Assembly (NCBI GenBank): GCA_040752835.1
Contig: JBFMGG010000005.1
Coordinates: 62,001-126,000 of the forward strand
Direction: 5' to 3'
DNA: 64,000 bases
Source: Campylobacterota bacterium
GTDB lineage: Bacteria > Campylobacterota > Campylobacteria > Campylobacterales > Sulfurimonadaceae
Shown here: positions 4,517 to 24,694 of the stretch, piece after piece
Layout: the number at the start of each line of letters is the position of its first letter
Position numbering within the stretch: position 1 is the stretch's first letter
Translations under genes and position numbers: made by a program
The notes under the pieces: generated by a model
What the model was told of the DNA's origin: nothing
The model's input: only the letters and a program-made list of their open reading frames with translations
Database searches by the model: none

Positions 4517-4523
4517 ACGGACA

Positions 4524-4572: not shown

Positions 4573-4575
4573 TTA

Positions 4576-4650
4576 TGGAGCGGGAAACGAGGTTCGAACT
4601 CGCGACCCCAACCTTGGCAAGGTTGTGCTCTACCACTGAGCTATTCCCGC
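4576..4650 (-). tRNA. tRNA-Gly (GCC)
   Basis: A 75-base cloverleaf with acceptor arms GCGGGAA and TTCCCGC, discriminator T and an encoded CCA. The anticodon loop is TTGCCAA (anticodon GCC). It is the promoter-proximal tRNA of the group, about 20 bases downstream of a good -10 box. Confidence 0.95.
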
Positions 4651-6553: not shown

Positions 6554-8347
6554 TTAATTGTGTTTGGCGTGCTCGAATTCGGGGACGATCTTCTTGAGCC
6601 CCTCGACGACGTTATCGGTATGTTCGAGGGCGTCGATGTCGCGGACGAGGGCGTCGATCGGGTAGCGGGTGGAGCGGGCGATCATGATCGATTCGAACGC
6701 CGTTTTCTGTTCGCTCTCATCGATCAGCAGCTCTTCGTAAAGTTTTTCGCCCGGACGAAGTCCCGTGTAGACGATTTCGATCGGGCGGGCGGCGTAGAGA
6801 CGGATCATCGTTTCGGCCAGGGTACGGATCTGCACCGGCTGCCCCATGTCGAGGATGAAAAGTTCCCCCCCGCGCGCGATCGCGGCGGCCTGGAGTACCA
6901 GCTGGCACGCTTCGCTGATCAGCATGAAATAGCGGGTGATTTCGGGGTGGGTGATCGTGATGGGCCCTCCCGCTTCGATCTGGGATTTGAATTTGGGGAT
7001 GACGCTGCCGCTGGAGCCCAGGACATTGCCGAAACGGACCGAGACGATTTCGCTGTTGCGCGGATCGACGTTTTGGGCGTAGAGTTCGACGACCCGTTTC
7101 GTCGCTCCCATGACGTTGGTCGGGCGGACCGCTTTGTCGGTTGAGATGATGACGATCTTGGGGACGTCGTGCGCGATCGCGCAGTCGATGAGGATGCGGC
7201 TGCCCAGAATGTTGTTCCGCACGGCGGCACGGGGATTGGACTCGCACAGCGGGACGTGTTTAAACGCGGCGGCGTGGATGACGATCTGCGGACGGGTTTG
7301 GGTAAAAATCTGTCCGAGGGTTTCGCGGTCGGTGATGCTGCACAGGTAGAGGTCGGCCCGGGGAATCCGTTCGCCGATCTGGTAGAGGTTGTATTCACTG
7401 TGGTCGATCAGCACGAGGCGTTCGGCTCCGAAACGGCGGCATTGCAGCGAGATTTCGCTGCCGATGCTTCCCCCGGCCCCGGTGATGAGGACGGTTTTCC
7501 CCCGGATGAAGCTTTCGATGGTTTGGGTATCGAGGTCTTTGGGGTGGCGGGCGAGGAGTTCCTCCACTGACAGCGGGGCGACCGTTTCGGCCCCGTCGGC
7601 GAGAAGGGCCGAGCGTTTGATTTCGTCCACCCCCGCTTTGGTGAGGAGTTCGTAGGCGAGGCGGAAATCGTCGTTGCCCAGCGAACCGTCGATGATCGCG
7701 GCGCTGACGTTGCGTTCCCGGACGGTCTTTTCGAGACGTTCGGGGGCGATCACTTTGATGTTCTGGACGCTGGAGCCGACCATGTGGCGGCTTGCGGGAT
7801 CGATGGCGACCACGGCGACGGGATAATAGGGGATGGAGCCTTCCAGGGCGCTTTGGATCAGGTGGGCGCTTCCGGGGGAGATTCCGACGATCACGGTTGT
7901 GCGAAGATCCTCATGCGGCGCGGAGAAACCGAACACCAGCCGTTTCAGCAGACGCAGGCCCCCCAAAAACAGGATCGAGAGGATCAGGTCGATGACGATG
8001 ACGCTTCGGGGAAAGGGGGCGAAAAAATCGGCAAAGAGGGTGTGGATGAGGGTGAACAGCGCGTAGGCCCCCGCAAGGGCGTAGACCAGTTTTTTTCCCT
8101 CTCCCAGGCCGTAGTAACGCCAGATGACGCGGTAGTTTTGCGAGGCGTAGATGAACGCGAGTTTGAGGGTGATCAGCGTCAGCGCGACCGATACGAACGG
8201 TTCCATGAACCGTTCGGGGACCGCAAAATTGAACCGCAGCAGGTAGGCGCCATAGAGAGACGCGAACGAGAGGAGGATGTCGAAGAGGACGAAAAAGGCG
8301 ATCCGCCGCGCGGTCGTGGGGCGGAAGAATCTTCGTACACGGCTCAC
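6554..8347 (-). CDS. pglF: UDP-GlcNAc 4,6-dehydratase, PglF/WbpM-like
   Basis: A 597-residue membrane-anchored short-chain dehydrogenase, last gene of the glycan operon. About four membrane helices fill residues 15-135, a CoA-binding-like Rossmann domain follows, and the catalytic domain begins at the ITGAGGSIGSE nucleotide motif (about 288-298). The STDKAVRPTNVMGATKR segment is the active-site region of this dehydratase group. It should oxidise and dehydrate UDP-GlcNAc to the 4-keto-6-deoxy sugar, the first step to UDP-diacetylbacillosamine. The open frame begins 54 codons earlier inside pglE; I start at GTG 8347, whose GTGA overlaps the pglE stop and gives family length. WbpM-like enzymes share the architecture, but the adjacent aminotransferase and phosphoglycosyltransferase favour PglF. 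Confidence 0.85.
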   Translation of the reverse strand: MSRVRRFFRPTTARRIAFFVLFDILLSFASLYGAYLLRFNFAVPERFMEPFVSVALTLITLKLAFIYASQNYRVIWRYYGLGEGKKLVYALAGAYALFTLIHTLFADFFAPFPRSVIVIDLILSILFLGGLRLLKRLVFGFSAPHEDLRTTVIVGISPGSAHLIQSALEGSIPYYPVAVVAIDPASRHMVGSSVQNIKVIAPERLEKTVRERNVSAAIIDGSLGNDDFRLAYELLTKAGVDEIKRSALLADGAETVAPLSVEELLARHPKDLDTQTIESFIRGKTVLITGAGGSIGSEISLQCRRFGAERLVLIDHSEYNLYQIGERIPRADLYLCSITDRETLGQIFTQTRPQIVIHAAAFKHVPLCESNPRAAVRNNILGSRILIDCAIAHDVPKIVIISTDKAVRPTNVMGATKRVVELYAQNVDPRNSEIVSVRFGNVLGSSGSVIPKFKSQIEAGGPITITHPEITRYFMLISEACQLVLQAAAIARGGELFILDMGQPVQIRTLAETMIRLYAARPIEIVYTGLRPGEKLYEELLIDESEQKTAFESIMIARSTRYPIDALVRDIDALEHTDNVVEGLKKIVPEFEHAKHN

Positions 8348-9450
8348 GCGCGTACCGATTTGACGATTTCGCAGACGCGGTGAACGTCGTCGCGGCTCAT
8401 GCGGGTTCCGCTGGGGAGGCACAGCCCGGTTTCGAACAGCCGCTGCGATGTGCCGTTTTCGACGCAAAGCGCCTCTGTGAACAGAGGCTGAAGGTGCATC
8501 GGTTTCCACAAAGGGCGGCTTTCGATGTTTTGAGCTTCGAGGGCGAGGCGGACCCGTTCGGGATCGGTACGCTCAAAGGTGAGCGTCGTAAGCCACCGGT
8601 TGCCTCGGGTATCTTTGAGCTCGGGCATGAATGCGATTTCATCAATCTCTCCCAGCTCTTCGCGGTACCACTGGAAAATCTGCCGGCGTGCCGCAATCCG
8701 CTCATCCAGCACTTCCATCTGCCCCACCCCGATGGCGGCGAGGATGTTGCTGAGCCGATAGTTGTAGCCGAATTCGGTGTGCTCGTAATGGGGGGCGTCA
8801 TCGCGCGCCTGCGTCGAATAGAAGCGGGCTTTGTCGATGAATTCCTTGTGTCCCGATACGAGCATCCCTCCCCCCGAAGTGGTGAGGATTTTGTTGCCGT
8901 TGAAACTGTAGGCGCCGAAGAGCCCCAGCGTCCCGCTTTGACGACCGTGATACAGCGCTCCGAGGCTTTCGGCGGCGTCTTCGATCAGGGCGATGCCGTG
9001 ACGGTCGCAGATGTCGAGGATACGTTCCAGGTCGGCGCACTGGCCGTAGAGGTGGGTCAGAATCAGCGCTTTGGGTTTTTTGGGTGCGCGTGCGATCGCC
9101 TGTTCGAGCAGTTCGGGGTCAAGATTCCAGCTTGCGCGGTCCGAATCGACGAAAACGGGGATCGCGTTTTGGTAGAGGATCGGCGCGACCGAACCGATAA
9201 AGGTGAACGAAGAGGCCAGAACGACATCCCCCGCTCTGACGCCCAGAACCCGCAATGCCAGATGGATCGCGGCCGTCGCCGTCGAGAGTGCGAGGGCGTT
9301 GGGGGTTTGGGTGTAGGAGCGGATGCTCTGCTCGAACCGCTCGACCATGGGACCCAGGGGGGCGATGTAGTTGCTTTCGAAGGCTTCGGCGATGTACGCC
9401 TGCTCCCGGCCGCTCATGTGCGGCGGAGAGAGGAAAAGACGGGGGTTCAT
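8344..9450 (-). CDS. pglE: DegT/DnrJ/EryC1 aminotransferase, PglE-like
   Basis: A 368-residue PLP-dependent sugar aminotransferase. The PLP lysine lies in FGAYSFNGNKILTTSGGG, and the cofactor Asp-Ala pair in IEDAAESLGA. It probably transfers an amino group from glutamate to C4 of the keto sugar made by PglF, as in bacillosamine synthesis. The frame extends upstream through pglC; I start at ATG 9450, overlapping the pglC stop by 4 bases and beginning with the typical [15 protein letters not shown]-terminus. It is clearly different from the operon's two other DegT-family genes, LegC-like and WbpE-like. Substrate assignment rests on the neighbours. Confidence 0.85.
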   Translation of the reverse strand: MNPRLFLSPPHMSGREQAYIAEAFESNYIAPLGPMVERFEQSIRSYTQTPNALALSTATAAIHLALRVLGVRAGDVVLASSFTFIGSVAPILYQNAIPVFVDSDRASWNLDPELLEQAIARAPKKPKALILTHLYGQCADLERILDICDRHGIALIEDAAESLGALYHGRQSGTLGLFGAYSFNGNKILTTSGGGMLVSGHKEFIDKARFYSTQARDDAPHYEHTEFGYNYRLSNILAAIGVGQMEVLDERIAARRQIFQWYREELGEIDEIAFMPELKDTRGNRWLTTLTFERTDPERVRLALEAQNIESRPLWKPMHLQPLFTEALCVENGTSQRLFETGLCLPSGTRMSRDDVHRVCEIVKSVRA

Positions 9451-10043
9451 GGGAAAACGGTCCTCCAGATGTAGCCGATGTCCCCCCAAAACGACCATTC
9501 GTGCAGGTAACGGCGGTTGAGGCGGACTTTGTCGGGCCAAATGATTTCGTCATTATACCGTTTCGGGTCGGGCTGGGCGGCAAGGATCTGCTCTTCGTCT
9601 TTGTACTTAAGGGTCGCGGGACCCGTGATCCCCGGGCGGAGGGCGAGGATTTCGGCATCTTCGCCGCTGAGGCGGTCCATGTAGCCGCTGACGTCCGGAC
9701 GCGGCCCGACGAGGCTCATCTGCCCCAGCAGGACGTTGATGAGCTGGGGGAGCTCGTCGATTTTGGTGCGGCGGAAAAAAGCGCCGCTGCGGGTGATGCG
9801 GGGATCGGCGGCGGTGGTTACCGTGGTGGTGTAATCGGTGAGGGGGCGCATCGTTTTGATCTTGATGACGGGAAACGGTTTGCCCCAGCGGCCGATGCGC
9901 GTCTGGATGAAAAAACCGTTGCTGCGGGTGTCGATGGAGGCCGCGACGAAAGCTATCAGGATGATCCACCATGTGGCGGCAAGGCCGAGGGCCGAGACGA
10001 CAAGGTCGAAACTCCGTTTGAGGAAACGCTGGTACAGGGTCAT
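9447..10043 (-). CDS. pglC: Monotopic phosphoglycosyl transferase, PglC-like
   Basis: A 198-residue bacterial sugar transferase. One N-terminal hydrophobic stretch (about 15-35) anchors it in the inner membrane. The catalytic core has the family hallmarks [18 protein letters not shown], the [11 protein letters not shown] stretch with the Asp-Glu dyad, and MSLVGPRP. PglC-type enzymes move a phospho-sugar from a UDP-sugar to undecaprenyl phosphate, starting lipid-linked glycan assembly. Lack of the large N-terminal membrane domain of WbaP-type enzymes, and a position beside pglE, pglF and pglB, favour a bacillosamine-type substrate. It lies 1 base after pglB and overlaps pglE by 4 bases. Confidence 0.88.
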
Positions 10044-10044
10044 G

Positions 10045-12141
10045 TCAAAGCTTCAGCCGGTAGATTTTGGTGAGCGGGTCGAGGATGACCGGTTCGAACA
10101 GCTTGGGATCGTAGCGTTCGAACACCGCCATCTGGATAAACGTCGAGTTGAGGTAAAAATCGTCCAGCACCAAAAAACGTCCGTAACTGGGGAGATAGAT
10201 CAGGTTGATCCCCTCGGAGGCGAATTGCTGGCGGGTCACCTGCAGTTTGTTGTTGCCGTCGTATCCGGCCTGGTAGAACTCTTTGATGGGGACGTCCCGA
10301 TCACCGATTTTGACGATGTTGCGCTCTTTGAGGACCGATACGCCGTTGCCCAGATCGAGCGTTTTGCCCGTATCCTGAACGGAGGCGGTCATGTAAAAAT
10401 AGGGTTGCGGCCGATTGTCGGGGGCATTGAGATCGAGGTTGGAGAAGAGCGTTACGGTCGGGAGGATGTCGATCATCCGCCAGGGGAGATAGAGATAGAC
10501 TTCCCGCGTCTTCGCCGGCAGCGCGACGTTTTCGCTGTAGCGGAGGGTGTCGAGGTAGTCGGCGACGTTTTCGGCCGTGCCGTCCTTGCGGATGAAGAGG
10601 GTGTCGGCGATCTCTTTGTAGCCCGAGGAGACGTAGGTCTCGACGGCGATCCGCGAGAGGCGGGCCGCTTCGAGCGCTGAGGAGGTGGTCAGGATCTCGC
10701 TGACGATAAAGTTGTCGTGATGGTGTTTTCCCCCGTCGATAAGGGTGTTGGTATGGGTATAAAACCACAGCGGGTAGCCGTAATCCCACCACGCGACCGT
10801 ATAGTCTTTGCTCGAGGCGATCGATTTGAACTGATCGAGTGCCGCCGCCTCTTTGGCGGTCATCACCGTGGGGACCTTGTATTCGACGATGTGGACGATA
10901 TGGGCTAGAAGGAGCACGGCACTCGAGACGCCGATGATCGCGTAGCGGATTTTGCGCGAGGCCACGCCGGCGGTGATGAAATAGAGGAGATAGACCGCTC
11001 CCAGTGCGGCGACGGGGACCGCATAGATGGTAAAGCGCAACCCGCCCCAAAAAGCGAAGAGCCCGATTCCCAGCAGCGGAAGGGTAAGGACAAACGCCTT
11101 ATGCCGGACGATCAGGGCGATGTAGCCCAGCGAAGCGGCGATCAGCGCCGCCGTGTTGCCGCTGATGCGGTTGGCGATTTCCGAAAAGGGGATTTTGCCC
11201 GCTTCGCGCACCGTCTGGGTTACCTGGAAGAAATGAAGCGACCCCTCCGTCGCGGTCCCTTTGGCGGTGTAGCTGAGGATTTTCGCCCAGATGAGCGAGA
11301 CGACGTTTCCGTTGACGAGAAAAACGGCAAAGGCGAACGCCGCAAGGACGAGCAGCACCCGCAACGAGAGCATCCCGCGGCTGTAGGCGAGACTCAGCGC
11401 GCCGATGAGAAGGAGTTTGATCCCTAAGGGAAGGAGAAAGAGGGCGACCGAGAGGAGCGCGATCGAATAGTAGGTAAAGGGCTCTTTACGGTGGAAGAGG
11501 AGCATATACCCCATGTAAAAGAGGGAGACGGCGTATATGACCGAAAGTCCCTGATCGTACAAAAACGGGTAGGCGAGGATCGAGAGGGCGCTGAGCAGCG
11601 CCCATGTGACGTTCTCCCTGATCGTCGTGGCCATGAGAAAGTAGACGATGAGCATCGGCGCCATCGCCGAGAACATGTCGGTATCGTAGTACCCCGCCAT
11701 GGTGCGGTTGTAGTAGCTCCAGGCAATGGACGCGATGAGGGCGGCGAAAAATCCGAAATAGGCGGCGTTGAACAGCCGGCCGATGAGGATCAGCGGGACG
11801 ACGACGAGCGAGGAGACGAACACGGGAAGATAGAGGATGACGCTTTCCAGGGGGAAAAATTGTGCGGCAAGCGCGGTGAGGGTGATCGTTGCCGAACTCC
11901 ATGCTTCGGCAACGCGGGGGTTGTGTTCGAAGATCCCGGTGAGCGAGTTCTGGGCGGCGGCGGCAAAATAATAGCCGTCGTTGGTGTTGATCATCAGGCT
12001 GCCGTTCCAGTGAAATTCGGGGATTCCCGACGCCCAGTCGATCCAGATCAGACGCATGCCGACGCTGAACGCGTAGGCGAAGAGGATCAGGAGGATGACG
12101 TGCAGGGTCGAGGTTCGCTCGTTGGGGAGTGAAAAGTTCAT
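10045..12141 (-). CDS. pglB: STT3-type oligosaccharyltransferase, PglB-like
   Basis: A 698-residue inner-membrane enzyme expected to transfer a lipid-linked glycan to asparagine in D/E-X-N-X-S/T sequons in the periplasm. About a dozen helices occupy residues 14-415, then a periplasmic domain. Diagnostic residues match Campylobacter PglB: the NDGYY segment (Asp55), the YYDTD metal motif (Asp153, Asp155), a probable catalytic-loop Glu313, the acceptor-binding WWDYG at 451-455 and DGGK at 469-472. The open frame runs 169 codons further into the GT2 gene; I start at ATG 12141, which overlaps the GT2 stop by 4 bases and gives the usual length (C. jejuni about 713). This is the key evidence that the operon serves protein N-glycosylation rather than only surface polysaccharide. 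Confidence 0.93.
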   Translation of the reverse strand: MNFSLPNERTSTLHVILLILFAYAFSVGMRLIWIDWASGIPEFHWNGSLMINTNDGYYFAAAAQNSLTGIFEHNPRVAEAWSSATITLTALAAQFFPLESVILYLPVFVSSLVVVPLILIGRLFNAAYFGFFAALIASIAWSYYNRTMAGYYDTDMFSAMAPMLIVYFLMATTIRENVTWALLSALSILAYPFLYDQGLSVIYAVSLFYMGYMLLFHRKEPFTYYSIALLSVALFLLPLGIKLLLIGALSLAYSRGMLSLRVLLVLAAFAFAVFLVNGNVVSLIWAKILSYTAKGTATEGSLHFFQVTQTVREAGKIPFSEIANRISGNTAALIAASLGYIALIVRHKAFVLTLPLLGIGLFAFWGGLRFTIYAVPVAALGAVYLLYFITAGVASRKIRYAIIGVSSAVLLLAHIVHIVEYKVPTVMTAKEAAALDQFKSIASSKDYTVAWWDYGYPLWFYTHTNTLIDGGKHHHDNFIVSEILTTSSALEAARLSRIAVETYVSSGYKEIADTLFIRKDGTAENVADYLDTLRYSENVALPAKTREVYLYLPWRMIDILPTVTLFSNLDLNAPDNRPQPYFYMTASVQDTGKTLDLGNGVSVLKERNIVKIGDRDVPIKEFYQAGYDGNNKLQVTRQQFASEGINLIYLPSYGRFLVLDDFYLNSTFIQMAVFERYDPKLFEPVILDPLTKIYRLKL

Positions 12142-13142
12142 CGTTGGCCTTGACGCAGGATTTTTTTCAGAATCGTTATTATACCGCCTATGCTCCCAAA
12201 GCCGTAACTGAAATGGAGCACCGCAAACGCGGCGATCTGCCGCAGCCACGTCGTGTTTTTCCCGATCTGTGCCGAACGGATGCCGATCGCTGCGAGATAC
12301 AGCCCCAGTATGGCGGCGCTGAGGCCTAGAAACGGGGGGTAAAGGGGGGAGAGGAGGGGCGGAACGATCAACCCCAGCACAAAGAGCAGCGGGACGAAAT
12401 GGCGCAGGCTCAGCGAGCGGAACGTCCGGGTGTAGTAGGGGGTCAGGATGTTCCAGTAGCCGTTTTGGTAGTTGTTGCGCCAGAGTTCGCGGTACGTTTC
12501 GCGGGCGAAATAGGTGCAGGTGACGTCGGGGATCAGGTAAATTTTCCCCCCTCCCCGGGCGATCCGCTTGTTGAACTCGATATCCTGGTTGCGGATGAGC
12601 CGTTCGTCGAAGAGGCCGTATTGCTCGAAAGTATCGCGCCGGAAACACCCGAACGGAACCGTATCGGCTTCGACGATCTCCGAAACGCCGGTGCGAAACG
12701 AGGAGTTTCCGACCCCGAAACGGTCGCTGAGGACGTTTTGGATGGCGTTGGCGGTCGGGGTTTTGCTCATCGTTTCGGTACGGCAGACGGCACCCACGTT
12801 GGCGGCGCCGAGCCGGATGCTCGCATCGACGAGACGTTCGAAGTAGTCGTGCGGATACTCGGTGTGGGCATCGAGCCGGATGATGTATTCCCCTTTTGAT
12901 GCGCTGACCCCGAGGTTCAAAGCGGCGGGGGCGATTTTTTTGGGGTTGTCGATGAGCCGGATGAAAGGGTGGCGCGCGGCGTAGCTTTCGACGATGGCGC
13001 GGGTGGCGTCTTCGCTTTGGCCGTCGATGACGATGACTTCGAGCCGGTCGTGCGGGTAGGTGGTCCGCAGAACCGAATCAAGGCACCGCCCGATGTAGCG
13101 TTCCTCGTTGCGGCAGGGGATGATGATCGAAAGCGATTTCAT
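12138..13142 (-). CDS. GT2 family glycosyltransferase with C-terminal membrane helices
   Basis: A 334-residue GT-A glycosyltransferase. The N-terminus has the GT2 signature SIIIPCRNEERYIGRCLDS, followed by VIDGQSEDAT and the metal-binding region around RLDAHTEYP (residues about 94-102). Two or three hydrophobic helices (about 240-330) anchor the C-terminus in the membrane, as in ExoA-like enzymes. It probably adds one sugar to the lipid-linked glycan on the cytoplasmic face; donor and acceptor are unknown. I start at ATG 13142, overlapping the acyltransferase by 4 bases, because the longer frame runs through that gene. Confidence 0.85.
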   Translation of the reverse strand: MKSLSIIIPCRNEERYIGRCLDSVLRTTYPHDRLEVIVIDGQSEDATRAIVESYAARHPFIRLIDNPKKIAPAALNLGVSASKGEYIIRLDAHTEYPHDYFERLVDASIRLGAANVGAVCRTETMSKTPTANAIQNVLSDRFGVGNSSFRTGVSEIVEADTVPFGCFRRDTFEQYGLFDERLIRNQDIEFNKRIARGGGKIYLIPDVTCTYFARETYRELWRNNYQNGYWNILTPYYTRTFRSLSLRHFVPLLFVLGLIVPPLLSPLYPPFLGLSAAILGLYLAAIGIRSAQIGKNTTWLRQIAAFAVLHFSYGFGSIGGIITILKKILRQGQR

Positions 13143-13639
13143 GCAGGTTGCCCGGCGTGTCGGATTTTTGCGGGGACGCCGTAGGCGGTCGCTCCCTCGG
13201 GGATCGAACGGTTGACGAGACTGGCTGCGCCGATGAGCGCTCCCCGCCCGATCACGATCCCCGAACGTCCCGAGAGGACGGTGCAGCGCATCCCGAGGTA
13301 GGCCCCCTCTTCGATCCGGATCGGGGTATGGGTCTGGTTTCGGCCGTGGCAGGCGAAATAACAGCCGTACGAAATCGTGACGTTGTCTTCGATGAGGGTG
13401 AGTGAAGGGTCCATGTCGTCGAGATAGCATTTCATCCCGATGAAGACGTTTTTGCCGATTTTGAATCCGATTGCGCGGTAGAGGAGGATACGCAGGGTGT
13501 TGAAAGGGAGCGCGGGGATGACGACGACATTGATAAATTTGCGCAGCGGTTTCCAGAAGATCAGCCAGAGGGGGTAATGGGCGTAATAGGGGGGAGTGCG
13601 CCGCAGTATATAGGCGTAAAAGAGCCGTACGAGGAACAT
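13139..13639 (-). CDS. Hexapeptide-repeat acyltransferase (LbetaH, WcaF-like)
   Basis: A 166-residue protein with a left-handed beta-helix made of hexapeptide repeats (residues about 60-160) and a C-terminal GVPAKIR motif typical of sugar O-acetyltransferases. A hydrophobic, aromatic N-terminus (1-45) may associate with the membrane. It probably acetylates a sugar of the operon's glycan; it lacks the Rossmann N-terminus of PglD, so it is not an obvious PglD. I start at ATG 13639, where TGATG joins it to the upstream glycosyltransferase stop. It sits between two glycosyltransferases, so a glycan substrate is likely, but the acyl group is unproven. Confidence 0.8.
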   Translation of the reverse strand: MFLVRLFYAYILRRTPPYYAHYPLWLIFWKPLRKFINVVVIPALPFNTLRILLYRAIGFKIGKNVFIGMKCYLDDMDPSLTLIEDNVTISYGCYFACHGRNQTHTPIRIEEGAYLGMRCTVLSGRSGIVIGRGALIGAASLVNRSIPEGATAYGVPAKIRHAGQPA

Positions 13640-14775
13640 CAGCGCCCCTCCCCTTTGTTCAGCAGGGTTTCGTAGAGGGCGAAGAGTTTTTGTTTTTCGC
13701 ACTCCCAGTTGTAGGTACTCACGACCGCTTTTTTACCGTTTTCCCCCATTGCGCGGGCCCGGTCGGGATGGTCGATGAGGTAGGTGATCGCCTCGGCAAT
13801 CGCTTCGGGATCGAGTGGATCGACGAGAAGACCGCACTGCGCGTTGTCGACGATCGAGCGCCACAGCGGAAAATCCGACGCGATGACGGGGATCCCCGCA
13901 GCCATGTATTCGAACATTTTCACCGGGAGGGCATCGACGTAGTTTCGGGTCGGGTGGAGGGTCACCAGCCCCGCTTTGGAACGGCTGAGGACGTCAGCTA
14001 CTTCGGCGCGGCCCAGAAAACCGAGCATGTTGACCTTTTCCCATCCCGCGGTCTGCTCCGCTTTGTTCCGGAGCTCGGCGGTTTCGAATTTGCCGCCCAG
14101 GTTCAACCGCACGTTTACGGTGCGGTTCATCGCGGCGATGATTTCGAAAACCCCCCGGATGGTCGAAATCCCCCCGATGTAGCACACTTCATTGAGGCGG
14201 TTTTCCCATGCCGTGTCGTTGGAAAGTTCCCCCAGAACGGGGAAATTGTTGATGTCCACGCTTCGGGGGTTGATCGGGAGGAATTTTTCCCGGATATAGG
14301 GGGTGGCGGTAACGACGGCGTCGAACCGCGAACACGCATGCCGCTCGTAGGCGGCGGAGGCCTTGGAGAGGAGGAATTTGGACGTTTTGCCCAGATACGC
14401 CTTGCTGAGGATCTGTTTGGGGAGGTCTTCGTGGGCGTCGAAGATCACTTTTTTCCCCAGTTTTTTGAGTTTCAGCCCGATGGGCATCAGTTCGGGATCG
14501 TGCAGGTGGTACAGATCGGCATCCAGCGCGCGTGCCTTGTCGAATACCGCGTGTACGGTACGGGTGAAACGGCTGAGGCGGCCGCCGGAGGGGGCACCGG
14601 CATCCAGGATATTGACGCCGCCGTGCTTTTCGTCCCCTTTGCCGTCGGCAACGATGAGATAGACCTCGTATCCCTCATGCGTCGCCAGGGAAGCGCACTC
14701 TTTGACGAAAATGCGGGTGTCGTAACGGGGGTGAGCCGAGGTGAGGTGGGCAATTTTATGTAAGTTTGACGTCAT
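13639..14775 (-). CDS. GT4-like glycosyltransferase
   Basis: A 378-residue GT-B fold glycosyltransferase. The N-terminal domain opens with HKIAHLTSAHPRYDTRIF and contains DLYHLHDPELMPIG. The C-terminal domain has GFLGRAEVADVL, then the donor-binding stretch PVKMFEYMAAGIPVIASDFP, typical of GT4 enzymes. It should transfer a sugar to the growing lipid-linked oligosaccharide on the cytoplasmic side. The open frame runs 84 codons into the asparagine synthase gene; I choose ATG 14775, leaving a 20-base overlap with that gene. A slightly later start is possible. The HPRYDTRIF-type N-terminus resembles surface-polysaccharide enzymes; the donor is not readable. Confidence 0.85.
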   Translation of the reverse strand: MTSNLHKIAHLTSAHPRYDTRIFVKECASLATHEGYEVYLIVADGKGDEKHGGVNILDAGAPSGGRLSRFTRTVHAVFDKARALDADLYHLHDPELMPIGLKLKKLGKKVIFDAHEDLPKQILSKAYLGKTSKFLLSKASAAYERHACSRFDAVVTATPYIREKFLPINPRSVDINNFPVLGELSNDTAWENRLNEVCYIGGISTIRGVFEIIAAMNRTVNVRLNLGGKFETAELRNKAEQTAGWEKVNMLGFLGRAEVADVLSRSKAGLVTLHPTRNYVDALPVKMFEYMAAGIPVIASDFPLWRSIVDNAQCGLLVDPLDPEAIAEAITYLIDHPDRARAMGENGKKAVVSTYNWECEKQKLFALYETLLNKGEGR

Positions 14776-16564
14776 AGATCCGCTCCCATTCGGCGATATT
14801 GAAAAGTTTCCATCGGGTTTTCGCGTCCAGTTTCGAGTAGTCGTAGGCTCCGCACAGGGTCCGCAGAAGCGGGCTGTTGCGAACGGAGGTCTCCATTGCC
14901 GGGGCGAGCGCTGCGAGCCATGTCGCGCTGGGGGCCTCGAACCCGATCTTGTCCCGACGCCACACGATGTCGGCGGGGAGGAGCTTTTCAACCCCCCGGC
15001 GCAGCAGGTATTTCGTCCACCCTTCATGGATTTTCAGCCCGTTTCGGATCGCGAGGGCGTTTTCGACGTTCCGGTAATCGACGAACGGTAACCGCGCCTC
15101 GACCGAGTGGCACATCGAATTTTTGTCTTCGTATTTAAGAAGATGGGGCAGTTGGGTGGAGGTGATCTCCAGAAGCTGCAATCCCAGAATGTTACCATAG
15201 TTTCGGGCCGAATCGCGGAGGGTTCCGAGGCTGAGGCGGTCGAAATATTCGGGTTTGATGAACGAGAGTTTCTTTTTAAGCCGCGCCAGCCGTATGGACG
15301 CGTTCGTAAAATAGACGAAATACTGCAGAAGCTTCCACGGGGTGAGTTTGGAGTGCTTGAAGCTCAGCCAGAACCCCCGGATTTTTTCGGAGCCTTTGAG
15401 GCTGAGGAGGTAGGCGGGGAGGTAGCGTTCGTACCCCATGAGGGTTTCGTCGCCCCCCTGGCCGTCGAGCATCACTTTGCACCCCAACCGGTTGGCTTCT
15501 TCGAAGACGAGGTACTGCATGATGATCGAGGGGCTTCCGAAGGGTTCTTCCTGAATGCGGATGACGTGTTCCACACAGGCGCGAAAGGCCTCGGCATCGG
15601 GTTCGATGATGCTCAGCTCAAGGGCGCAGTGGTCGGCGACTTTTCGGGCCCACCGGCTTTCGTCGTTGGCCGATTCGGTCGATTTGGCATGAACGGCGCT
15701 GAGCGCGCGATCTTGGGTATTGTACATCTTCGCCGCAATCGCCGCGACGCTTGAGCTGTCAAGGCCGCCGCTGAGGCAGGTTCCCACCTTCACGTCGGAG
15801 CGGAGGCGGATTTTGACGGCGTCTTCGAGCGAGGCGGCATAGGTGCGGACCGCTTCGGCTTCGTCCAGCGTCCCGAGCTTTTCGTCGATGCGGATCGCGT
15901 AATAGCGCCGCAGGGAAAATTCCCCCGTTTTGAGATCGTAGAGGAGATTGTGCGAGGGGGGAAGTTTGAGAACCCCCTCAAAAAACGTTTCGTCGGTGTG
16001 CTCTTCGTAGCTGAGCACGAGGTAGTCCATTAGGATTTTCGTATTGACCTTCCGCTCGTCCAGGAAGGGGAGAAGCTGTTTGATCTCGGAGCCGAAGGCG
16101 AACCGTCCGGGGGCCTGGACGTAATAAAACGGTTTGACCCCGAAACGGTCGCGACTGCAAAAGAGGGTCTCTTTTTCGCGGTCGTAGAGGGCGAAGGCCC
16201 ACATCCCGTTGAAGCGCGAAACGCACCCTTCCCCCCATTCTTCGTAAGCGGCGAGGATCACTTCGGTATCGCTGTGGGACGTGAACGAATGCCCCGCGGC
16301 GATCAGCTCGTCGCGCAGTTCGAGGTAATTGTAGACCTCCCCGTTGTAGACGATGACGTAGCGCTGTGCGCGGTGCATCGGCTGGTGTCCCTCGGGGCTG
16401 AGGTCAAGGATCGAGAGCCTCCGGTGTCCGAGGGCGATATTGTTTTCGAGAAAAAAACCTTCATCGTCGGGCCCCCGGTGGCGGATGCGGCCGTTCATGG
16501 CTTCGATTTCGCCTCGGGGGATGGGGGTGTTGTTTCGGTCAATGATTCCGCTGATTCCGCACAT
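14756..16564 (-). CDS. Asparagine-synthase-type amidotransferase (AsnB-like) in glycan operon
   Basis: A 602-residue glutamine-hydrolysing amidotransferase. Cys2 of MCGISG is the N-terminal nucleophile of the class II glutaminase domain (about 1-200), with RHRGPDDEG and NGEVYNY intact. The synthetase domain carries the pyrophosphate loop SGGLDSSS. Such enzymes make asparagine, but relatives inside O-antigen or capsule operons amidate uronic acids. Its place between glycosyltransferases in an operon that also makes a diacetamido uronic acid favours glycan amidation; that is inference. A second, full-length AsnB-like gene lies at 31.0-32.8 kb. It starts 3 bases after the upstream gene. Confidence 0.85.
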   Translation of the reverse strand: MCGISGIIDRNNTPIPRGEIEAMNGRIRHRGPDDEGFFLENNIALGHRRLSILDLSPEGHQPMHRAQRYVIVYNGEVYNYLELRDELIAAGHSFTSHSDTEVILAAYEEWGEGCVSRFNGMWAFALYDREKETLFCSRDRFGVKPFYYVQAPGRFAFGSEIKQLLPFLDERKVNTKILMDYLVLSYEEHTDETFFEGVLKLPPSHNLLYDLKTGEFSLRRYYAIRIDEKLGTLDEAEAVRTYAASLEDAVKIRLRSDVKVGTCLSGGLDSSSVAAIAAKMYNTQDRALSAVHAKSTESANDESRWARKVADHCALELSIIEPDAEAFRACVEHVIRIQEEPFGSPSIIMQYLVFEEANRLGCKVMLDGQGGDETLMGYERYLPAYLLSLKGSEKIRGFWLSFKHSKLTPWKLLQYFVYFTNASIRLARLKKKLSFIKPEYFDRLSLGTLRDSARNYGNILGLQLLEITSTQLPHLLKYEDKNSMCHSVEARLPFVDYRNVENALAIRNGLKIHEGWTKYLLRRGVEKLLPADIVWRRDKIGFEAPSATWLAALAPAMETSVRNSPLLRTLCGAYDYSKLDAKTRWKLFNIAEWERIYDVKLT

Positions 16565-16567: not shown

Positions 16568-17929
16568 TCAATTCCGTATTTCGTGTTGGATGAAGGCTTC
16601 AAGCCGTTTTGTGTGCGGCGTCGTCCAAAGGGGCGAGGTTTCCTCCCCGAAGGGGGATTCCGCCGCTGCCGCAAACTCTTGCGCATCGCGGACAATCCGG
16701 ATATTCGGGCTTTTCATGTCGCCCATGAATTTCGTCGCCAGAGCGTCGATGTCGGCCAGGATCGCGATTTTGCCGAAAAACAGCGCCTCCTGGGCGCAGG
16801 TCGAATAGCAGGTCATGTGGATGTCCGAAGCGCGCATGACATCGTAACACGAATATTCGTCTTTGAACAGGTAGACGTTGGGTCCCATGCCGAATTCTTC
16901 GTAATAATCGCGACCGAAATGCCGCAGCGAGAACATAAACGCGATGTCGCGGTGGATGCGGGCGAGGTCGCGGATGAAAAGGGCGAGCTCTTTTTCGACC
17001 GTGTACTGGGTCGAGACGGAGACCCTCAGGCGGTATTTGTCCCCGAGGTCGAGGAGCTCTTCGGGGATCGGTTCGCGGGCGATGAGCTCGAGCTGGTAGC
17101 GGCCGACCGGGTAGATTCGCGCGATGGGGTTGTTGGGGGTATTTTCGAGCTCGCGCCGGTCGTATTCCCCGAAGGCGAGGAGGACGTCGGGAAAATAGGA
17201 AGGGTCGAGGGGCTTGAGCAGGTTATAGGCGAAATGTTCGGGGCCGATGGCGGAATGTTGCGCTTCGATGGTTTTGATTCCCCGCTCCGATGCCGCCTTG
17301 AGGATCGCCTGGTCGCTGTCGTAGCAGCTCACAAAGATCGCTTTGGGGCGGTAGAGGGCGAAGAGGAGGCGGTAGACCCTTTTGCGGACGTTGAACGCAC
17401 GGATGAAGGAGGCGTAGTCGAACGCGGTGGCGTTGTCGCGGTTGATCGTATCGAGCAGCGGGATCTCGATGCTCGGCCCGAACCGTTTTGCGGCGAGGAG
17501 GAGCAGCCCCGCGACGAGATCGAGGAGCCGTTTTGAGACGATCCGTTTCGTCGAGATCCGGTTTCGGGGGAGATGAAGGGGATTGGGGAGGTCGATGTAG
17601 AGACATTTCTCCTCCCCGAGCAGCCCGATCAGCTCTTCGAACGCTTTTTCGCGGTAGATCCCGTGGTAGGGGAAGCGTGACTGGGTGTTGGAAAAAACGA
17701 GGTAGTCGTAGCGGTGAAACCAGTTGCCGAAACCGTAGAACGCTTCGCGCAGGGCTTTAACCCCTTTTTTGACGAGGCTTTGGCGGTTTTGGAGGGCGTA
17801 TTCGTCGGTCATGTTCCGGATACTGTGCCAGAAATAATAGGTTCTCAGGTACGACCACACTCTCTCGCCGCCGTAGAGGAGGGTTTCGACGCCGTAATCG
17901 CGTTCGGTCCGTTTAAACGTGCTGTTCAT
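16568..17929 (-). CDS. Unrecognised protein, possible GT-B glycosyltransferase
   Basis: A 453-residue soluble protein that I cannot assign to a named family. The C-terminal half looks like the donor-binding domain of a GT-B glycosyltransferase: a beta-alpha pattern with IEAQHSAIGPEHFAY (about 222-236), YRLRVSVSTQYTVEKE, and late YDVMRASDIHMTCYSTCAQE then ALFFGKIAIL (about 370-402). That last region resembles the conserved end of CDP-glycerol and capsule-type transferases. No membrane segments are obvious apart from one short hydrophobic stretch near residue 138. It lies between the flippase and the amidotransferase and close to the CMP-legionaminate synthetase, so it is a candidate legionaminic acid transferase. 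Function is inferred from context only. It overlaps the flippase gene by 17 bases. Confidence 0.65.
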   Translation of the reverse strand: MNSTFKRTERDYGVETLLYGGERVWSYLRTYYFWHSIRNMTDEYALQNRQSLVKKGVKALREAFYGFGNWFHRYDYLVFSNTQSRFPYHGIYREKAFEELIGLLGEEKCLYIDLPNPLHLPRNRISTKRIVSKRLLDLVAGLLLLAAKRFGPSIEIPLLDTINRDNATAFDYASFIRAFNVRKRVYRLLFALYRPKAIFVSCYDSDQAILKAASERGIKTIEAQHSAIGPEHFAYNLLKPLDPSYFPDVLLAFGEYDRRELENTPNNPIARIYPVGRYQLELIAREPIPEELLDLGDKYRLRVSVSTQYTVEKELALFIRDLARIHRDIAFMFSLRHFGRDYYEEFGMGPNVYLFKDEYSCYDVMRASDIHMTCYSTCAQEALFFGKIAILADIDALATKFMGDMKSPNIRIVRDAQEFAAAAESPFGEETSPLWTTPHTKRLEAFIQHEIRN

Positions 17930-19178
17930 GGTTTCTCCAAAAGACCCAGGGCATGGGATAGAGGCGGTGGGCCAAAAACCATCCGAGGATAAAAATCGTT
18001 CCGTATCCGCAGACGAGGGCGTATGCCGAGCCGATCACCCCGTAGCGGAGGATAAAAAAGTAGTTCAGACCCCACAGCAGCAGGAGCGAGAGGGTGGTCA
18101 CGATCGAGAGGAGGTAGGTTTTTTTGACGTAAAAAATGTAGTTGGTCACGATGAAATAAAACCCCTGGAGCAAGAACGCGACCGAGAGAACCTGCGAAAG
18201 GACGACCCCCTCCCGGAAGTTCCCGCCGATGAAAAAACGGTACACCAGAGGGAGAAGGGCGATAAAGACGAGGGTGAAAGCTGTCATCGCCAGGGCGACT
18301 TTGTAGGTTTGGCGGACGATGAGGGCTTTGGCGCCCGCCGAGGGGGAGGCGTTGAGCTGTTCGTAGAGGTGGGGCATCCATGCCTGGTTAACGGAGGTCA
18401 TCACGATCAAAATCCCCCCCGCGACCTGAAACGCGACGCTGTAAAGACCCACTTCGCGCACCCCCATCATGTTGGCCAGAAAGAGTTTGTCCGACATCGC
18501 CAGCAAAATCCCCGCCAGGGTATGGGGGAGGAGCGGGATGCCGAAGCGCAGCGCCTCTTTGAGGGTGTCGCGCGAAACGTACAACTGAAGGTAGCCCAGG
18601 GTACGAAGCACGGCCAGCCCCAGGAGGGTGAAGAGGGCATATGCGGCGGCGATCCCCAGGATGCGCCCTTCCCATCCCATTCCCAGCGAAACGACGAATA
18701 CGAGGGTGAAGGCGAAGTTGGCGAGCGTCAGGGAGATTTTGAATTTGGCGTAGTTGAGCGGCTCTTTTTTGGCCTGGAAAATGACCGGCAGCATCGTCGG
18801 GATCGATTGCATCAGGGCGAACAACGGGACGCACACGACCCAGTCGGAGGGAATCTTGAACGATGCGGACAAAGGGGTCTGGAAAAGGATGAAAAGAAGT
18901 TCCAAAAAGGCGAAAGCGCCGAGGGGTATCCATATCATCGACGAAACGAACCGGCTGAACCCCTCCGGGGAGAGTTTTGAGTATTCCAGGATGAAAAGGC
19001 TGTGGATGTTCAGCAGGATAAAGGGGAACGAGAGGCTCATCAAAAGCTGCACCAGCGAGAGTTTTCCGTAATCGCCGGGGCTCAGGTACGACGTGAGGAG
19101 CGGCAGCAGCAAAAAAGGGAGTGCGGCATTGACCATGTTGGCCGCCGAATAGGAGAAGATGTGTCTGCGCAGGCTCAC
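17913..19178 (-). CDS. Wzx-type oligosaccharide flippase
   Basis: A 421-residue integral membrane protein with about twelve helices and the layout of the MOP/PST (Wzx) exporter family, including the N-terminal PFLLLPLLTSYLSPGDYG segment typical of these proteins. It should flip an undecaprenyl-linked oligosaccharide from the cytoplasmic to the periplasmic face, where PglB could use it. Campylobacter pgl loci use the ABC flippase PglK instead, and no ABC transporter gene is present here. ATG 19178 overlaps the preceding CMP-sugar synthetase by 4 bases. Confidence 0.85.
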   Translation of the reverse strand: MSLRRHIFSYSAANMVNAALPFLLLPLLTSYLSPGDYGKLSLVQLLMSLSFPFILLNIHSLFILEYSKLSPEGFSRFVSSMIWIPLGAFAFLELLFILFQTPLSASFKIPSDWVVCVPLFALMQSIPTMLPVIFQAKKEPLNYAKFKISLTLANFAFTLVFVVSLGMGWEGRILGIAAAYALFTLLGLAVLRTLGYLQLYVSRDTLKEALRFGIPLLPHTLAGILLAMSDKLFLANMMGVREVGLYSVAFQVAGGILIVMTSVNQAWMPHLYEQLNASPSAGAKALIVRQTYKVALAMTAFTLVFIALLPLVYRFFIGGNFREGVVLSQVLSVAFLLQGFYFIVTNYIFYVKKTYLLSIVTTLSLLLLWGLNYFFILRYGVIGSAYALVCGYGTIFILGWFLAHRLYPMPWVFWRNHEQHV

Positions 19179-19852
19179 AGGTACAATCCGGCGATTTTGA
19201 AATCGATCTCTTCGTCGATGTCGACCGAACTTTCGCGGTCCATCGGATAGGCGTAGATGTTCGCGTTCAGGAAAAAGCTTTTCTGCTCGAGCAGGGGGAC
19301 GGTTTTGCAGACGTAGACGGCGCCGTTGATCCGGTAGTACTTCTCAAGGTCCTGGCTCCGTTTGTTGCGGACCTCCTCGCGCAGAAAATGGCGCATGTCC
19401 CCATCCTCGGGAAGGGTGTTGCTCCACAGCGGGCTGTGGTCGTTCTCACACACCGAAATGACGGCGTCGGCGTTTTTCGCCACCGCTTTCTCCAGCGCTT
19501 CGTCGATGTGGTGCGCTTTGCGCAGCGGGCTGGTCGGCTGGAGCAGCACGATCCAGTCGCTGCGCGGGGAGTGCCCGATCGCGTGTTCGACCGTCTCGAA
19601 CGTTCCGGCGGTGTCGGTCGCGAGGTCGTCCGGGCGCCGGAGCGCCTCTATCCCGTAGCTTTGCGCGATCGCAAGGATTTCCGCATCATCGCTGGTGACC
19701 ACGATGCGGTCGATGTAGCGGCTCTTCATCGCCGCTTCGATCGTCCATCCAATGAGCGGTTTGCCCCCCAGCGGAAGGAGGTTTTTCCGGGGGAGGCGTT
19801 TGCTCCCGCCGCGTGCGGGGATGATGGCCAAAACGGTGTGATTCTTAATCAT
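19175..19852 (-). CDS. legF: CMP-legionaminate (CMP-nonulosonate) synthetase
   Basis: A 225-residue cytidylyltransferase. The CTP-binding motif ARGGSKRLPRKN lies at residues 13-24, with LLQPTSPLR and the ending SVDIDEEIDFKIAG matching the NeuA/LegF/PseF family. It activates a nonulosonic acid to its CMP form. Company with LegB, LegC, LegG, LegI and PtmE homologues favours legionaminic over sialic or pseudaminic acid. The 5' end overlaps the acyltransferase gene by 8 bases. The family is certain; the exact sugar is inferred from the pathway set. Confidence 0.85.
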   Translation of the reverse strand: MIKNHTVLAIIPARGGSKRLPRKNLLPLGGKPLIGWTIEAAMKSRYIDRIVVTSDDAEILAIAQSYGIEALRRPDDLATDTAGTFETVEHAIGHSPRSDWIVLLQPTSPLRKAHHIDEALEKAVAKNADAVISVCENDHSPLWSNTLPEDGDMRHFLREEVRNKRSQDLEKYYRINGAVYVCKTVPLLEQKSFFLNANIYAYPMDRESSVDIDEEIDFKIAGLYL

Positions 19853-20918
19853 GTCGGGCTCTCCGGGATAACAGGGATCGGGTCAGCGGACGTTCGTAGC
19901 GTTCGTAAACGAAATGCGATGCGACGAGGGTTGCGAGGATCATGAAAGCGATCTGTGCTTGAGGAGGAATATCGCTGCCATTGAACCATACGACGTTGCA
20001 GACGAGAAAAACGACGGGGTGGAGCAGGTAGAGGGTGTAGGAGATATTGCCGAACCGCTCGAACGCTTTTGCCGTCGGACTTTGGTGCGCGACGTGCGGG
20101 TTCAGTGCCGTAAACAGGTAAAACAGGATCAGTGCGACCGCCGAGAGGATCAGGCGGTCAGTCTCGTAGATGAGGGCGACGATGCCCCCCTCGACCGGGT
20201 AGAAAACCGCCGTAAGGGCCGTTGCGCCGATCAGGAACCAGACCGTCCGTTTCGGAAGCGCAAAAAAGGAGCTTTTTTCGAGGTAGAGCACCCCCCCGAG
20301 GATTCCGAAAAGAAAAAAGTAGACGTGGTTGACCGGGTTCATGTAGATGGGCCAGTACTCCGCCGTTTCGGGGGAATCGAACATCCCGAACGCCGAGACG
20401 CCCAGCGCCGAGAAGGCGAGGATCAACAGTGCGGCCGAAGCCGTTTTTTTCGCTTTTCGGACGGCGTAGAGGGCAAGGGGGAGGAGCAGGTAAAACGCGA
20501 TCTCCATCCCGATCGACCAGCTCCCCGCCGTAAAGCCCGTGTGGTGCCCGAAGAGGACGAAGCTGACGGTGAGGTTCAGAAGGATCTGCTCCATCGGGGG
20601 GAGCGTTTTCCCCCCCACGAGAAGTGCCAGCAGAAAGAGTGCGACGACGAGCCAGTAGAGGGGATAGATCCGGGCAAAACGCTTGAAAAAATAGTCTTTG
20701 AGGAGCGGGGCGTCGAAACGCTCGAATTTTCGATAGTAGCTCAGCGTCAGCGAAAAACCGCTGATGATGAAAAAGAGCGAGACGCCATACAGGGCGTTAC
20801 GCGTCAGCGCCGATGCGGCATCGGGAGTAAAGAGTTTTTCCCAGATCGAATAGTGGTAGACCATGACGAGCAGGGCGAGTATCCCCCGCAGGTAGTCGAT
20901 CGTGTAGACTCTCCCCAT
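19845..20918 (-). CDS. Acyltransferase 3 family membrane protein (OafA-like)
   Basis: A 357-residue integral membrane protein with about ten helices. The N-terminus IDYLRGILALLVMVYHY contains the family's R-G and catalytic-type His, and FFIISGFSLTL is the following signature of the acyltransferase 3 group that O-acylates surface sugars. The start may be ATG 20921 or ATG 20918; the second gives the ATGA overlap with ptmE seen across the operon. Its position between the legionaminate activation and guanylyltransferase genes suggests it O-acetylates legionaminic acid or another residue of the glycan; the target is inference. Confidence 0.85.
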   Translation of the reverse strand: MGRVYTIDYLRGILALLVMVYHYSIWEKLFTPDAASALTRNALYGVSLFFIISGFSLTLSYYRKFERFDAPLLKDYFFKRFARIYPLYWLVVALFLLALLVGGKTLPPMEQILLNLTVSFVLFGHHTGFTAGSWSIGMEIAFYLLLPLALYAVRKAKKTASAALLILAFSALGVSAFGMFDSPETAEYWPIYMNPVNHVYFFLFGILGGVLYLEKSSFFALPKRTVWFLIGATALTAVFYPVEGGIVALIYETDRLILSAVALILFYLFTALNPHVAHQSPTAKAFERFGNISYTLYLLHPVVFLVCNVVWFNGSDIPPQAQIAFMILATLVASHFVYERYERPLTRSLLSRRARHD

Positions 20919-21964
20919 CAAAAGAACTCGTGATATTCGACGTTGGCGCGTTCGTATTCTTCCATTCGGCCGATGTCGAGCCAGTATTCGCGAATCGGGA
21001 AGGAGATCGTTTTCTCCCCCTCGGCGATCAGGGTTTCAAAGAGGGTCGGCATGTCGTAGAACCGGTTTTTCGGAATCCGTTCGAGGGCCTTGGGGCTGAG
21101 CATGTAAATTCCCGCGCTGACGAAAAATTTGTGGACCGGTTTTTCGACGATCGAGAGGATCCGGTTCTCTTCGACGTTCACGACGCCGTAGGGGACCTGA
21201 AAGTCGTATTCGCGGACGCACATCGTGGCTGTCGCGTCCTGATCGGTGTGGTAATCGAGAAGATGGCCGAAATTGGCGTTGGTGAGCAGATCGCCGTTCA
21301 TGACGAAAAACGGCTCTTCGGGGAGGGGGGAAAGGAGGCTGAGCGCTCCGGCAGTCCCCATCCGTTCCTCTTCGAGGAGATATTCGATGTTCACGCCGAA
21401 CGCGCTGCCGTCGCCGAAATAGTTGCGGATGACGTCGGATTTGTAGTTGACGCACATGATGATGTCGGTAAACCCGTATTGAGCGAACGTCTCGACAATC
21501 GTCTGCAAAATCGGTTTGTTCCCCACTTTGAGCATTGGTTTTGGGGTCTCTTCGGTGAGGGGACGCAGACGGGTTCCCAGCCCTCCGACCATCAAAACGA
21601 CCTTGTTGGGTTTGCGGTGGGGGCGGACCAATTCTTCGATCGCCCGGATCCCGATGACCCGGTTCTCCTCGTCCACGACGGGCATCTGGCGCAGTTTTTT
21701 GCTCAGCGCTTTTTGGAGGATCTCCTCTTTGGAGTCGGTCAGTCGCGCGACGGTGGGGGTCTTGAAGACGATGCTCTCAATCTTGTCGTCGAGTGTCAGG
21801 TTGTTCAGCAGCCCCCGACGGATATCGCCGTCGGTGAGGGTGCCCAGAAGGCGGTCGTTTTCGTCGACGACGATGGCGATCTGCATGGCTCCCTGGTCGA
21901 TAAGGCGCAGCGCTTCGCGGACGGTCGACGTGGGAAGGAGTTTAATTCGGTCGATCGGTGTCAT
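20918..21964 (-). CDS. ptmE: CBS-domain sugar nucleotidyltransferase, PtmE-like
   Basis: A 348-residue protein with two N-terminal CBS domains (about 1-115) and a C-terminal nucleotidyltransferase domain beginning MVGGLGTRLRPLTEETPKPM (about 126-146). This fusion matches PtmE of Campylobacter, which converts glucosamine-1-phosphate and GTP to GDP-glucosamine, the first committed step of the GDP-linked legionaminic acid route. The other precursor enzymes (PtmA, PtmF, PgmL) are not in the window. It overlaps the next gene upstream by 4 bases. The family is clear; GTP preference is known of the family, not read here. Confidence 0.85.
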   Translation of the reverse strand: MTPIDRIKLLPTSTVREALRLIDQGAMQIAIVVDENDRLLGTLTDGDIRRGLLNNLTLDDKIESIVFKTPTVARLTDSKEEILQKALSKKLRQMPVVDEENRVIGIRAIEELVRPHRKPNKVVLMVGGLGTRLRPLTEETPKPMLKVGNKPILQTIVETFAQYGFTDIIMCVNYKSDVIRNYFGDGSAFGVNIEYLLEEERMGTAGALSLLSPLPEEPFFVMNGDLLTNANFGHLLDYHTDQDATATMCVREYDFQVPYGVVNVEENRILSIVEKPVHKFFVSAGIYMLSPKALERIPKNRFYDMPTLFETLIAEGEKTISFPIREYWLDIGRMEEYERANVEYHEFF

Positions 21965-24116: not shown

Positions 24117-24694
24117 GTAACGATGCTCCCCGCTTTGATGAATGACGCTTCCGCGATCAACGCCCCCTCTTTCGAGACGGCGTTACTCCCGACGAAAGTA
24201 CCCTCTCCGACGACGGTGGCGCCGTTGAGGATCGCCCCGGTCGAGACGTGACAGTGGTCCCCCACGCGGCAGTCGTGCTCGATCAGGGCCTTGGTATTGA
24301 TGATGCAGTTGGCCCCTACGCGTGCGTGGGCGTTGATCAGCGCATCGTGCATGACGACGCTTCCCCGTTCAATCCGGGCATGGGGAGAAACATAGGCCCG
24401 CGGCGATACGATGGAGGGGATGACGTATCCTGCGCGTTCGAGCAGCGCGAAGAGTTTTTTGCGCAGGTCGGGGGTTCGCACCTGCCCTACGCTGACGATC
24501 GCGTTGGGGTAGCGCGAAACGAGAGACGCCAGGTCGTCATCGCATCCGATCACGTCGTATCCCAGGAGTTTTCCCCCGATGAGCTCGGGACGGTCGATGA
24601 TTCCGGCGATCGTGTATTCTCCCCCCGATTCGATGACGTCGATGAGGGCTTTGCAGTGCCCCCCTCCGCCGACCAAAAGGATTTCGGGTTTCAT
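24113..24694 (-). CDS. legH: PglD/LegH-like sugar N-acetyltransferase
   Basis: A 193-residue protein with the PglD architecture: an N-terminal Rossmann-like domain (ILLVGGGGHCKALIDVIES, about 5-23) that binds the nucleotide sugar, and a C-terminal left-handed beta-helix (about 95-193) that binds acetyl-CoA, with IEHDCRVGDHCHVS carrying the catalytic-type His. By position between legC and legI it should acetylate the 4-amino group of the legionaminic precursor. It is the only PglD-type protein in the window, so it could also serve the bacillosamine branch. The frame extends into legC; I start at ATG 24694, overlapping the legC stop. Confidence 0.82.
   Translation of the reverse strand: MKPEILLVGGGGHCKALIDVIESGGEYTIAGIIDRPELIGGKLLGYDVIGCDDDLASLVSRYPNAIVSVGQVRTPDLRKKLFALLERAGYVIPSIVSPRAYVSPHARIERGSVVMHDALINAHARVGANCIINTKALIEHDCRVGDHCHVSTGAILNGATVVGEGTFVGSNAVSKEGALIAEASFIKAGSIVT

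Follow-up and report, generated by a model that had tools for sequence, protein, structure and literature searches.

Asparagine synthase-like genes of the glycan locus

The window analysed here is a stretch of 64,000 nucleotides from a Campylobacterota bacterium of the family Sulfurimonadaceae (assembly GCA_040752835.1, 11 contigs with a total of 2.13 Mb; contig JBFMGG010000005.1, positions 62,001 to 126,000). It contains two genes for AsnB-type proteins, named AsnB1 and AsnB2, at a glycan biosynthesis locus (Table 1). AsnB1 is located on the minus strand (internal stops interrupt the plus strand there), in a gene run which also encodes WbpA, WbpB, WbpD and WbpE, a nonulosonate pathway, a flippase-like protein, glycosyltransferases and a PglB-type oligosaccharyltransferase. 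AsnB2 and wbpA are divergently oriented with 129 bp between them, and a sequence-only reading of the window had likewise described the second copy as divergent from the operon promoter.

The same reading had recognised two full-length but divergent enzymes, and this was confirmed by the open reading frames (ORFs), the domains and the identity of 34% over 570 columns. Both proteins contained the GATase_7 (PF13537) and Asn_synthase (PF00733) domains far over the cut-off, and both the Cys2 (MCG start in AsnB2) and the SGGLDS loop were intact. All six glutaminase positions that were checked are kept in the two proteins, as is the pyrophosphatase (PP) loop. In AsnB1 the glutaminase set is Cys1, Arg49, Asn74, Gly75, Glu76 and Asp98 (E. 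coli numbering without Met). The distance of 17 kb first given needs a small correction, as the two genes together span 18.1 kb, with 14.5 kb between their facing ends. The third PF00733 match of the genome was GMP synthase, as read from its sequence.

AsnB1 starts only 3 bases after the stop codon of the gene before it, and the start codon of gt4 is inside the AsnB1 3′ end with an overlap of 20 nt; AsnB1 is therefore part of the operon. It had been placed between two glycosyltransferases, which holds for the downstream side, where a clear family 4 glycosyltransferase (GT4) was found. The upstream gene (gtX) had no Pfam match and a weak match to the BFO_1060-family glycosyltransferases (27.9 bits against a cut-off of 200). 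Among the loci fetched, gtX was seen in those of the genus only, and none of the papers listed in a literature search used the term BFO_1060. The proposal that the operon makes a uronic acid agrees with WbpB, WbpD and WbpE, whose best PDB matches are all solved enzymes of the Wbp type.

Acceptor-pocket motif

In an alignment of 155 rows, the aspartate-site motif was SGEGSDE in E. coli AsnB and in AsnB2, as in an asparagine synthetase, and DGQGGDE in AsnB1. Gln369 of AsnB1 replaces the motif Glu, and all 22 aligned relatives, which had been picked from the same group, have Gln there too. For human asparagine synthetase (ASNS), the excerpted text of PMC6748925 reports no activity with L-aspartate for E364A, E364Q and D367A, and describes a computed model in which Glu-364 reaches the aspartate alpha-carboxylate via a water molecule while Ser-362 binds ribose. 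Since DGQGGDE aligns with SGEGSDE, AsnB1 carries the natural equivalents of human E364Q and S362D, and it lacks the Glu which is needed for aspartate in the human enzyme. Another position, which from the spacing we presume to match human Arg-403, was Tyr in 20 of 21 DGQGGDE rows, in a gappy part of the alignment.

Phylogeny, family models and structure

The tree was built from the same 155 rows with a quick method, with support from the Shimodaira-Hasegawa-like approximate likelihood ratio test only. AsnB ORFs shorter than 480 aa and exact duplicates were dropped (189 to 154 sequences), and E. coli AsnB was added, so that it is present twice. The clade containing AsnB1 had 20 members and the one containing AsnB2 had 27, with support of 100 for each. 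The AsnB1 clade was apart from AsnB2 and from the WbpS-like rows with SAD/SSD motif, in a tree built without the characterised WbpS, WbqG and PGN_1234. These WbpS-like rows were 27 sequences, mostly of unlabelled genomes chosen by TIGR03108 score, and AsnB1 showed at most 34% identity to them. The phylogeny with WbpS-like proteins suggested in the sequence-only reading did not give the outcome named there as refutation, that both copies group with housekeeping AsnB; AsnB1 has its own clade. Literature searches listed no paper on this clade, and in one of them none of the ten papers shown mentioned Sulfuricurvum.

AsnB1 passed the general AsnB model TIGR01536 (463.9 bits, cut-off 267.1). Its score with TIGR03108 was lower (393.2), and this was not its best NCBIfam model, whereas a WbpS-like protein (L145) showed the reverse order (546 with TIGR03108 vs 454). 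The TIGR03108 cut-off of 816.9 was passed in none of the 397 genomes of the class, so only the score rank is informative. By this rank and by the low identity to the WbpS-like rows, AsnB1 is not supported as a WbpS orthologue at the sequence level.

The AlphaFold model of AsnB1 (predicted local distance difference test 93.8, predicted template modelling score 0.93) showed the AsnB fold from end to end. Two solved structures were tied as closest: TsnB9 (7ylz; Z 38.9, root-mean-square deviation (rmsd) 2.6, 537 residues aligned) and E. coli AsnB (1ct9; Z 38.5, rmsd 2.6, 474 aligned), and human ASNS (6gq3) gave Z 35.8, rmsd 2.6 and 473 aligned. E. coli AsnB and human ASNS share the full-length fold and the glutaminase residues with AsnB1, but the AsnB1 pocket is altered at the Glu and the Ser, and identity to E. 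coli AsnB is 29% over aligned columns. TsnB9 is by its title a hydroxyamidotransferase, that is, an AsnB fold with another task; unlike AsnB1 it retains the motif Glu in the alignment, and it is not known to be a glycan enzyme. The predicted structure was used for fold confirmation only, and the fold does not discriminate between substrates.

Distribution and neighbourhood of AsnB1

Among 41 genomes of the genus, WbpB was found in seven, gt4 in four and AsnB1 (at least 88% identity) in three, and the sets were fully nested. The chance of confinement to the WbpB genomes would be 0.003 for AsnB1 and 0.0003 for gt4 if genomes were independent, which they are not. The closest named relative of AsnB1 is that of Sulfuricurvum sp. 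MLSB (88%, locus L007). One genome (G012) has Wbp genes, gt4 (60%) and AsnB2, with AsnB1 absent, which suggests that gt4 follows the Wbp sugar and that AsnB1 is an optional modifier.

Outside the genus, gt4 (at least 40% identity) was just downstream in nine of 15 assessable AsnB1-clade loci, and it was absent from all other AsnB loci compared. This count omits four truncated loci (L008, L019, L022 and L032), the genus locus L007 and the outlier L027; the short L018 was counted, with gt4 visible. The AsnB1 clade travels with one GT4 glycosyltransferase across phyla. A conserved upstream partner was ruled out, the preceding gene being from several unrelated families.

Wbp-type sets were found near AsnB1 relatives in Mucilaginibacter (L021) and Paenibacillus (L023), with WbpB-like Gfo/Idh members only 23-24% identical to that of the window. 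A relative on an Azospirillum plasmid (43.5% identity to AsnB1, motif DGQGADE) is near a sugar dehydrogenase, a WbpB/WbpD-type protein and a WbpE-like aminotransferase. The plasmid matches listed with a feature name were all annotated asnB.

Some other arrangements were observed. On the Azospirillum ramasamyi plasmid (L186), a frame of 534 aa at 3306-4910 matches the UDP-GlcNAc 3-dehydrogenase model over residues 1-319 and also WbpD (53%), and looks like a fusion of WbpB with WbpD. A Chitinophaga metagenome-assembled genome (L062) contained two AsnB1-clade paralogues separated by a single gene (7017-8804 and 9983-11791; identity to AsnB1 of 43% and 51%, respectively), and paired paralogues of the clade were likewise found in L019. 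In another family of the order (L125), an AsnB-like protein whose motif is GGQGGDE (9452-11335, minus strand) is located beside a WbpA/B/D/E run with 66-82% identity to that of the window.

AsnB2 at the edge of the island

AsnB2-like proteins were found in 39 of 41 genomes of the genus, two of them partial (G034 and G455). In 22 of 22 same-genus loci fetched with long flanks, AsnB2 adjoins dcd and accC whatever glycan genes are on the other side, and similar synteny was found in three loci of other families (L120, L130 and L132). On that other side, WbpB (at least 60% identity) was present in five of the 22 loci (L102, L106, L110, L114 and L189). Because the dcd-accC side is fixed and the other side varies, the boundary of a variable glycan island lies at AsnB2. 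The simplest reading of this protein is an asparagine synthetase, and by its motif and synteny it is probably the ordinary one. The synteny and the separate clades ruled out an equal treatment of the two copies. In G034 (L110, near 9181-10644) the AsnB2 frame is short (488 aa) and lacks the N-terminal part, because of either a frameshift or a fault in the assembly.

The genome has GatB and aspartyl-tRNA synthetase (AspRS), and its only two PF00152 matches are AspRS and lysyl-tRNA synthetase. Asn-tRNA is therefore presumably made by amidation on the tRNA, and asparagine auxotrophy, the test suggested for each gene in the sequence-only reading, would be a weak test in this genome.

Proposed function of AsnB1

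A role of AsnB1 as a non-aspartate amidotransferase is well supported by the pocket motif, the separate clade, the mobile glycan context and the nesting of AsnB1 within gt4 and of gt4 within wbp in the genus. With moderate confidence, we propose that it is a glutamine-dependent amidotransferase for a sugar carboxylate, with the Wbp diacetamido-uronic acid as the likeliest acceptor, and that AsnB2 is separate. The Wbp uronic acid pathway is in AsnB1's own operon, as would suit a WbpS-like function. Of the earlier suggestion that one or both copies amidate the uronic acid, the part on the operon copy stands as a non-aspartate amidotransferase, and the part on AsnB2 is not supported, given its SGEGSDE motif and a dcd-accC synteny independent of wbp.

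In the proposed route, the N-terminal nucleophile (Ntn) glutaminase of AsnB1, with its Cys2 intact, would release NH3, and the PP-loop domain would adenylate the C6 carboxylate of the WbpA/B/E/D product, UDP-2,3-diacetamido-2,3-dideoxy-uronic acid. NH3 would then attack the adenylated carboxylate to give an uncharged uronamide, and the GT4 would add this residue to the lipid-linked glycan; alternatively, AsnB1 might act just after the transfer. PglB would put the lipid-linked glycan on protein, and AsnB2 would be a separate conserved asparagine synthetase merely abutting the island.

Several observations weigh against this proposal. The nesting in the genus comes from three close relatives with one inherited locus. 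At least two Wbp genes within 10 kb were found in only four of 15 GQG-type loci vs none of 13 others (one-sided p 0.067), where L007 is not among the four as its wbp genes are just outside the 10-kb flank, and the 13 leave out L059 and L064, whose motif is unreadable; these numbers weaken the idea that the GQG group as a whole is linked to Wbp genes. A sugar-dehydrogenase gene was at the AsnB1 locus in only four of 18 genomes (contig numbers matched to loci by us); such a gene was somewhere in all 18 genomes and in 13 of 14 controls. The operon of AsnB1 also makes a nonulosonate carboxylate. The inactivity of E364Q is known from human ASNS only, and other substitutions (S362D, R403Y) could compensate for it.

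Alternative explanations

AsnB1 might amidate another glycan carboxylate, either the nonulosonic (legionaminic-type) acid of the operon or a different uronic acid. The leg/neu genes share its operon and many Bacteroidota members of the clade have no Wbp genes within 10 kb, but the neighbour listing gave no NeuB match at AsnB1-clade loci outside the genus. Moreover, leg genes are also found by AsnB2 in genus genomes without AsnB1 (L105, L106, L108 and L109), while WbpB is in all AsnB1 genomes, and we consider this explanation unlikely.

An amide ligase which, like the lasso-peptide cyclases, would couple some amine different from ammonia to an amino acid or a sugar carboxylate was considered from the score with the lasso isopeptide cyclase model, which was higher for AsnB1 (335 bits) than for AsnB2 (198) or a WbpS-like protein (203). 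This score is far under the cut-off (525), and the checked glutaminase residues, all kept in the clade, point to ammonia; such a function is very unlikely.

We give just as little credence to AsnB2 amidating the Wbp sugar, instead of AsnB1 or together with it. Its divergent position by wbpA and the genome G012, with Wbp genes and AsnB2 in the absence of AsnB1, would fit, but an AsnB2-like gene in nearly all genomes of the genus against WbpB in seven, the fixed synteny and the canonical motif argue otherwise.

That AsnB1 is after all an asparagine synthetase, either recruited or a chance leftover in the operon, is the most doubtful: its TIGR01536 score would agree, but the WbpS-like L145 passes this model too, so that passing says little, and the E-to-Q and S-to-D changes in the acceptor pocket, the separate clade, the mobile glycan context and the canonical AsnB2 in the same genome are against it.

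Other genes of the glycan island

In the genus, the glycan island that extends from ilvD to asnB2 (4811-31038) is variable, with a different left flank of asnB2 in most compared loci. Four clustered tRNA genes (Ser, Cys, Leu and Gly; 4238-4650, minus strand) are just beyond the island.

Table 1. Features of the glycan island and its edge (positions in the window).
Feature	Position	Strand	Description
AsnB1	14756..16564	-	602 aa, Ntn glutaminase and PP-loop synthetase; DGQGGDE at residues 367-373, Y478; proposed sugar-carboxylate amidotransferase
gt4	13639..14775	-	GT4 glycosyltransferase; conserved partner of the AsnB1 clade
gtX	16568..17929	-	453 aa, directly upstream of AsnB1
wbpA	29631..30908	-	UDP-HexNAc C6 dehydrogenase; assigned by family and position
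wbpB	28669..29628	-	Gfo/Idh oxidoreductase; top PDB match WbpB 3oa2, E 1.8e-113
wbpD	28094..28669	-	Hexapeptide N-acetyltransferase; top PDB match 3mqg, E 4.9e-65
wbpE	27015..28097	-	Aminotransferase; top PDB match WbpE 3nu7, E 1.4e-126
legB, legC, legH, neuB, neuC, ptmE-like, acyltransferase, neuA-like CMP-transferase	19175..27018	-	Nonulosonate (legionaminic-type) genes; rival carboxylate source
Wzx-type flippase-like membrane protein	17913..19178	-	
gt2	12138..13142	-	GT2 glycosyltransferase
PglB-type oligosaccharyltransferase	10045..12141	-	NF050801, E 1.5e-139, under the model cut-off
pglC, pglE, pglF-like	6554..10043	-	Phosphoglycosyltransferase, aminotransferase, 4,6-dehydratase
AsnB2	31038..32840	+	600 aa; SGEGSDE at residues 351-357; core gene adjoining dcd-accC; edge of the variable glycan island

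Comparison with known uronamide systems

WbpS, WbqG and PGN_1234 (TIGR03108-type) are, like AsnB1, AsnB-type two-domain amidotransferases in glycan loci, but the WbpS-like proteins have SADGGDE with Lys where AsnB1 has DGQGGDE with Tyr. WbpS is described as making uronamides out of uronic acids (excerpt of PMC3684757). In Porphyromonas gingivalis, PGN_1234 (WbpS), by the wbpE and wzx genes, acts on the Wbp diacetamido-uronic acid and is needed for its conversion to the uronamide in the cargo linking sugar, the mass of which increased by 1 Da upon deletion; PGN_1234 has its closer relatives in the TIGR03108 family, with P. aeruginosa WbpS and E. coli O121 WbqG (excerpts of PMC7468200). A similar case within the Campylobacterota is the PglB N-glycan of Helicobacter pullorum, HexNAc-HexNAcAN-HexNAcA-HexNAcA-HexNAc on Asn, whose HexNAc uronamide depends on an AsnB-like gene, the wbpS mutant having a disaccharide; its sugar comes from WbpO (mono-acetamido) and its WbpS is 63% identical to that of P. 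aeruginosa (excerpts of PMC6025236). The best reading of the AsnB1 sequence is that it would work like WbpS but probably belongs to another clade.

Uronamide chemistry is thus already known, even in an N-glycan of Campylobacterota, and what may be new is the separate clade of AsnB1 and its pocket signature. A wider reading, somewhat less likely than not, is that the DGQGGDE clade is a second sugar-acid amidotransferase family beside WbpS, marked by the E-to-Q change and linked with one GT4, which would here give a neutral diacetamido-uronamide N-glycan beside the nonulosonic acid. The proposed family would range over Campylobacterota, Bacteroidota and Bacillota, and Pseudomonadota with the DGQGADE relative. 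Databases name such proteins asparagine synthase, and within glycan loci the DGQGGDE vs SGEGSDE signature could help to distinguish genuine asparagine synthetases from amidases of sugars. The signature could thus predict bacterial glycans with neutral uronamides, and so an altered surface charge and antigen structure; this is a testable refinement and no new principle.

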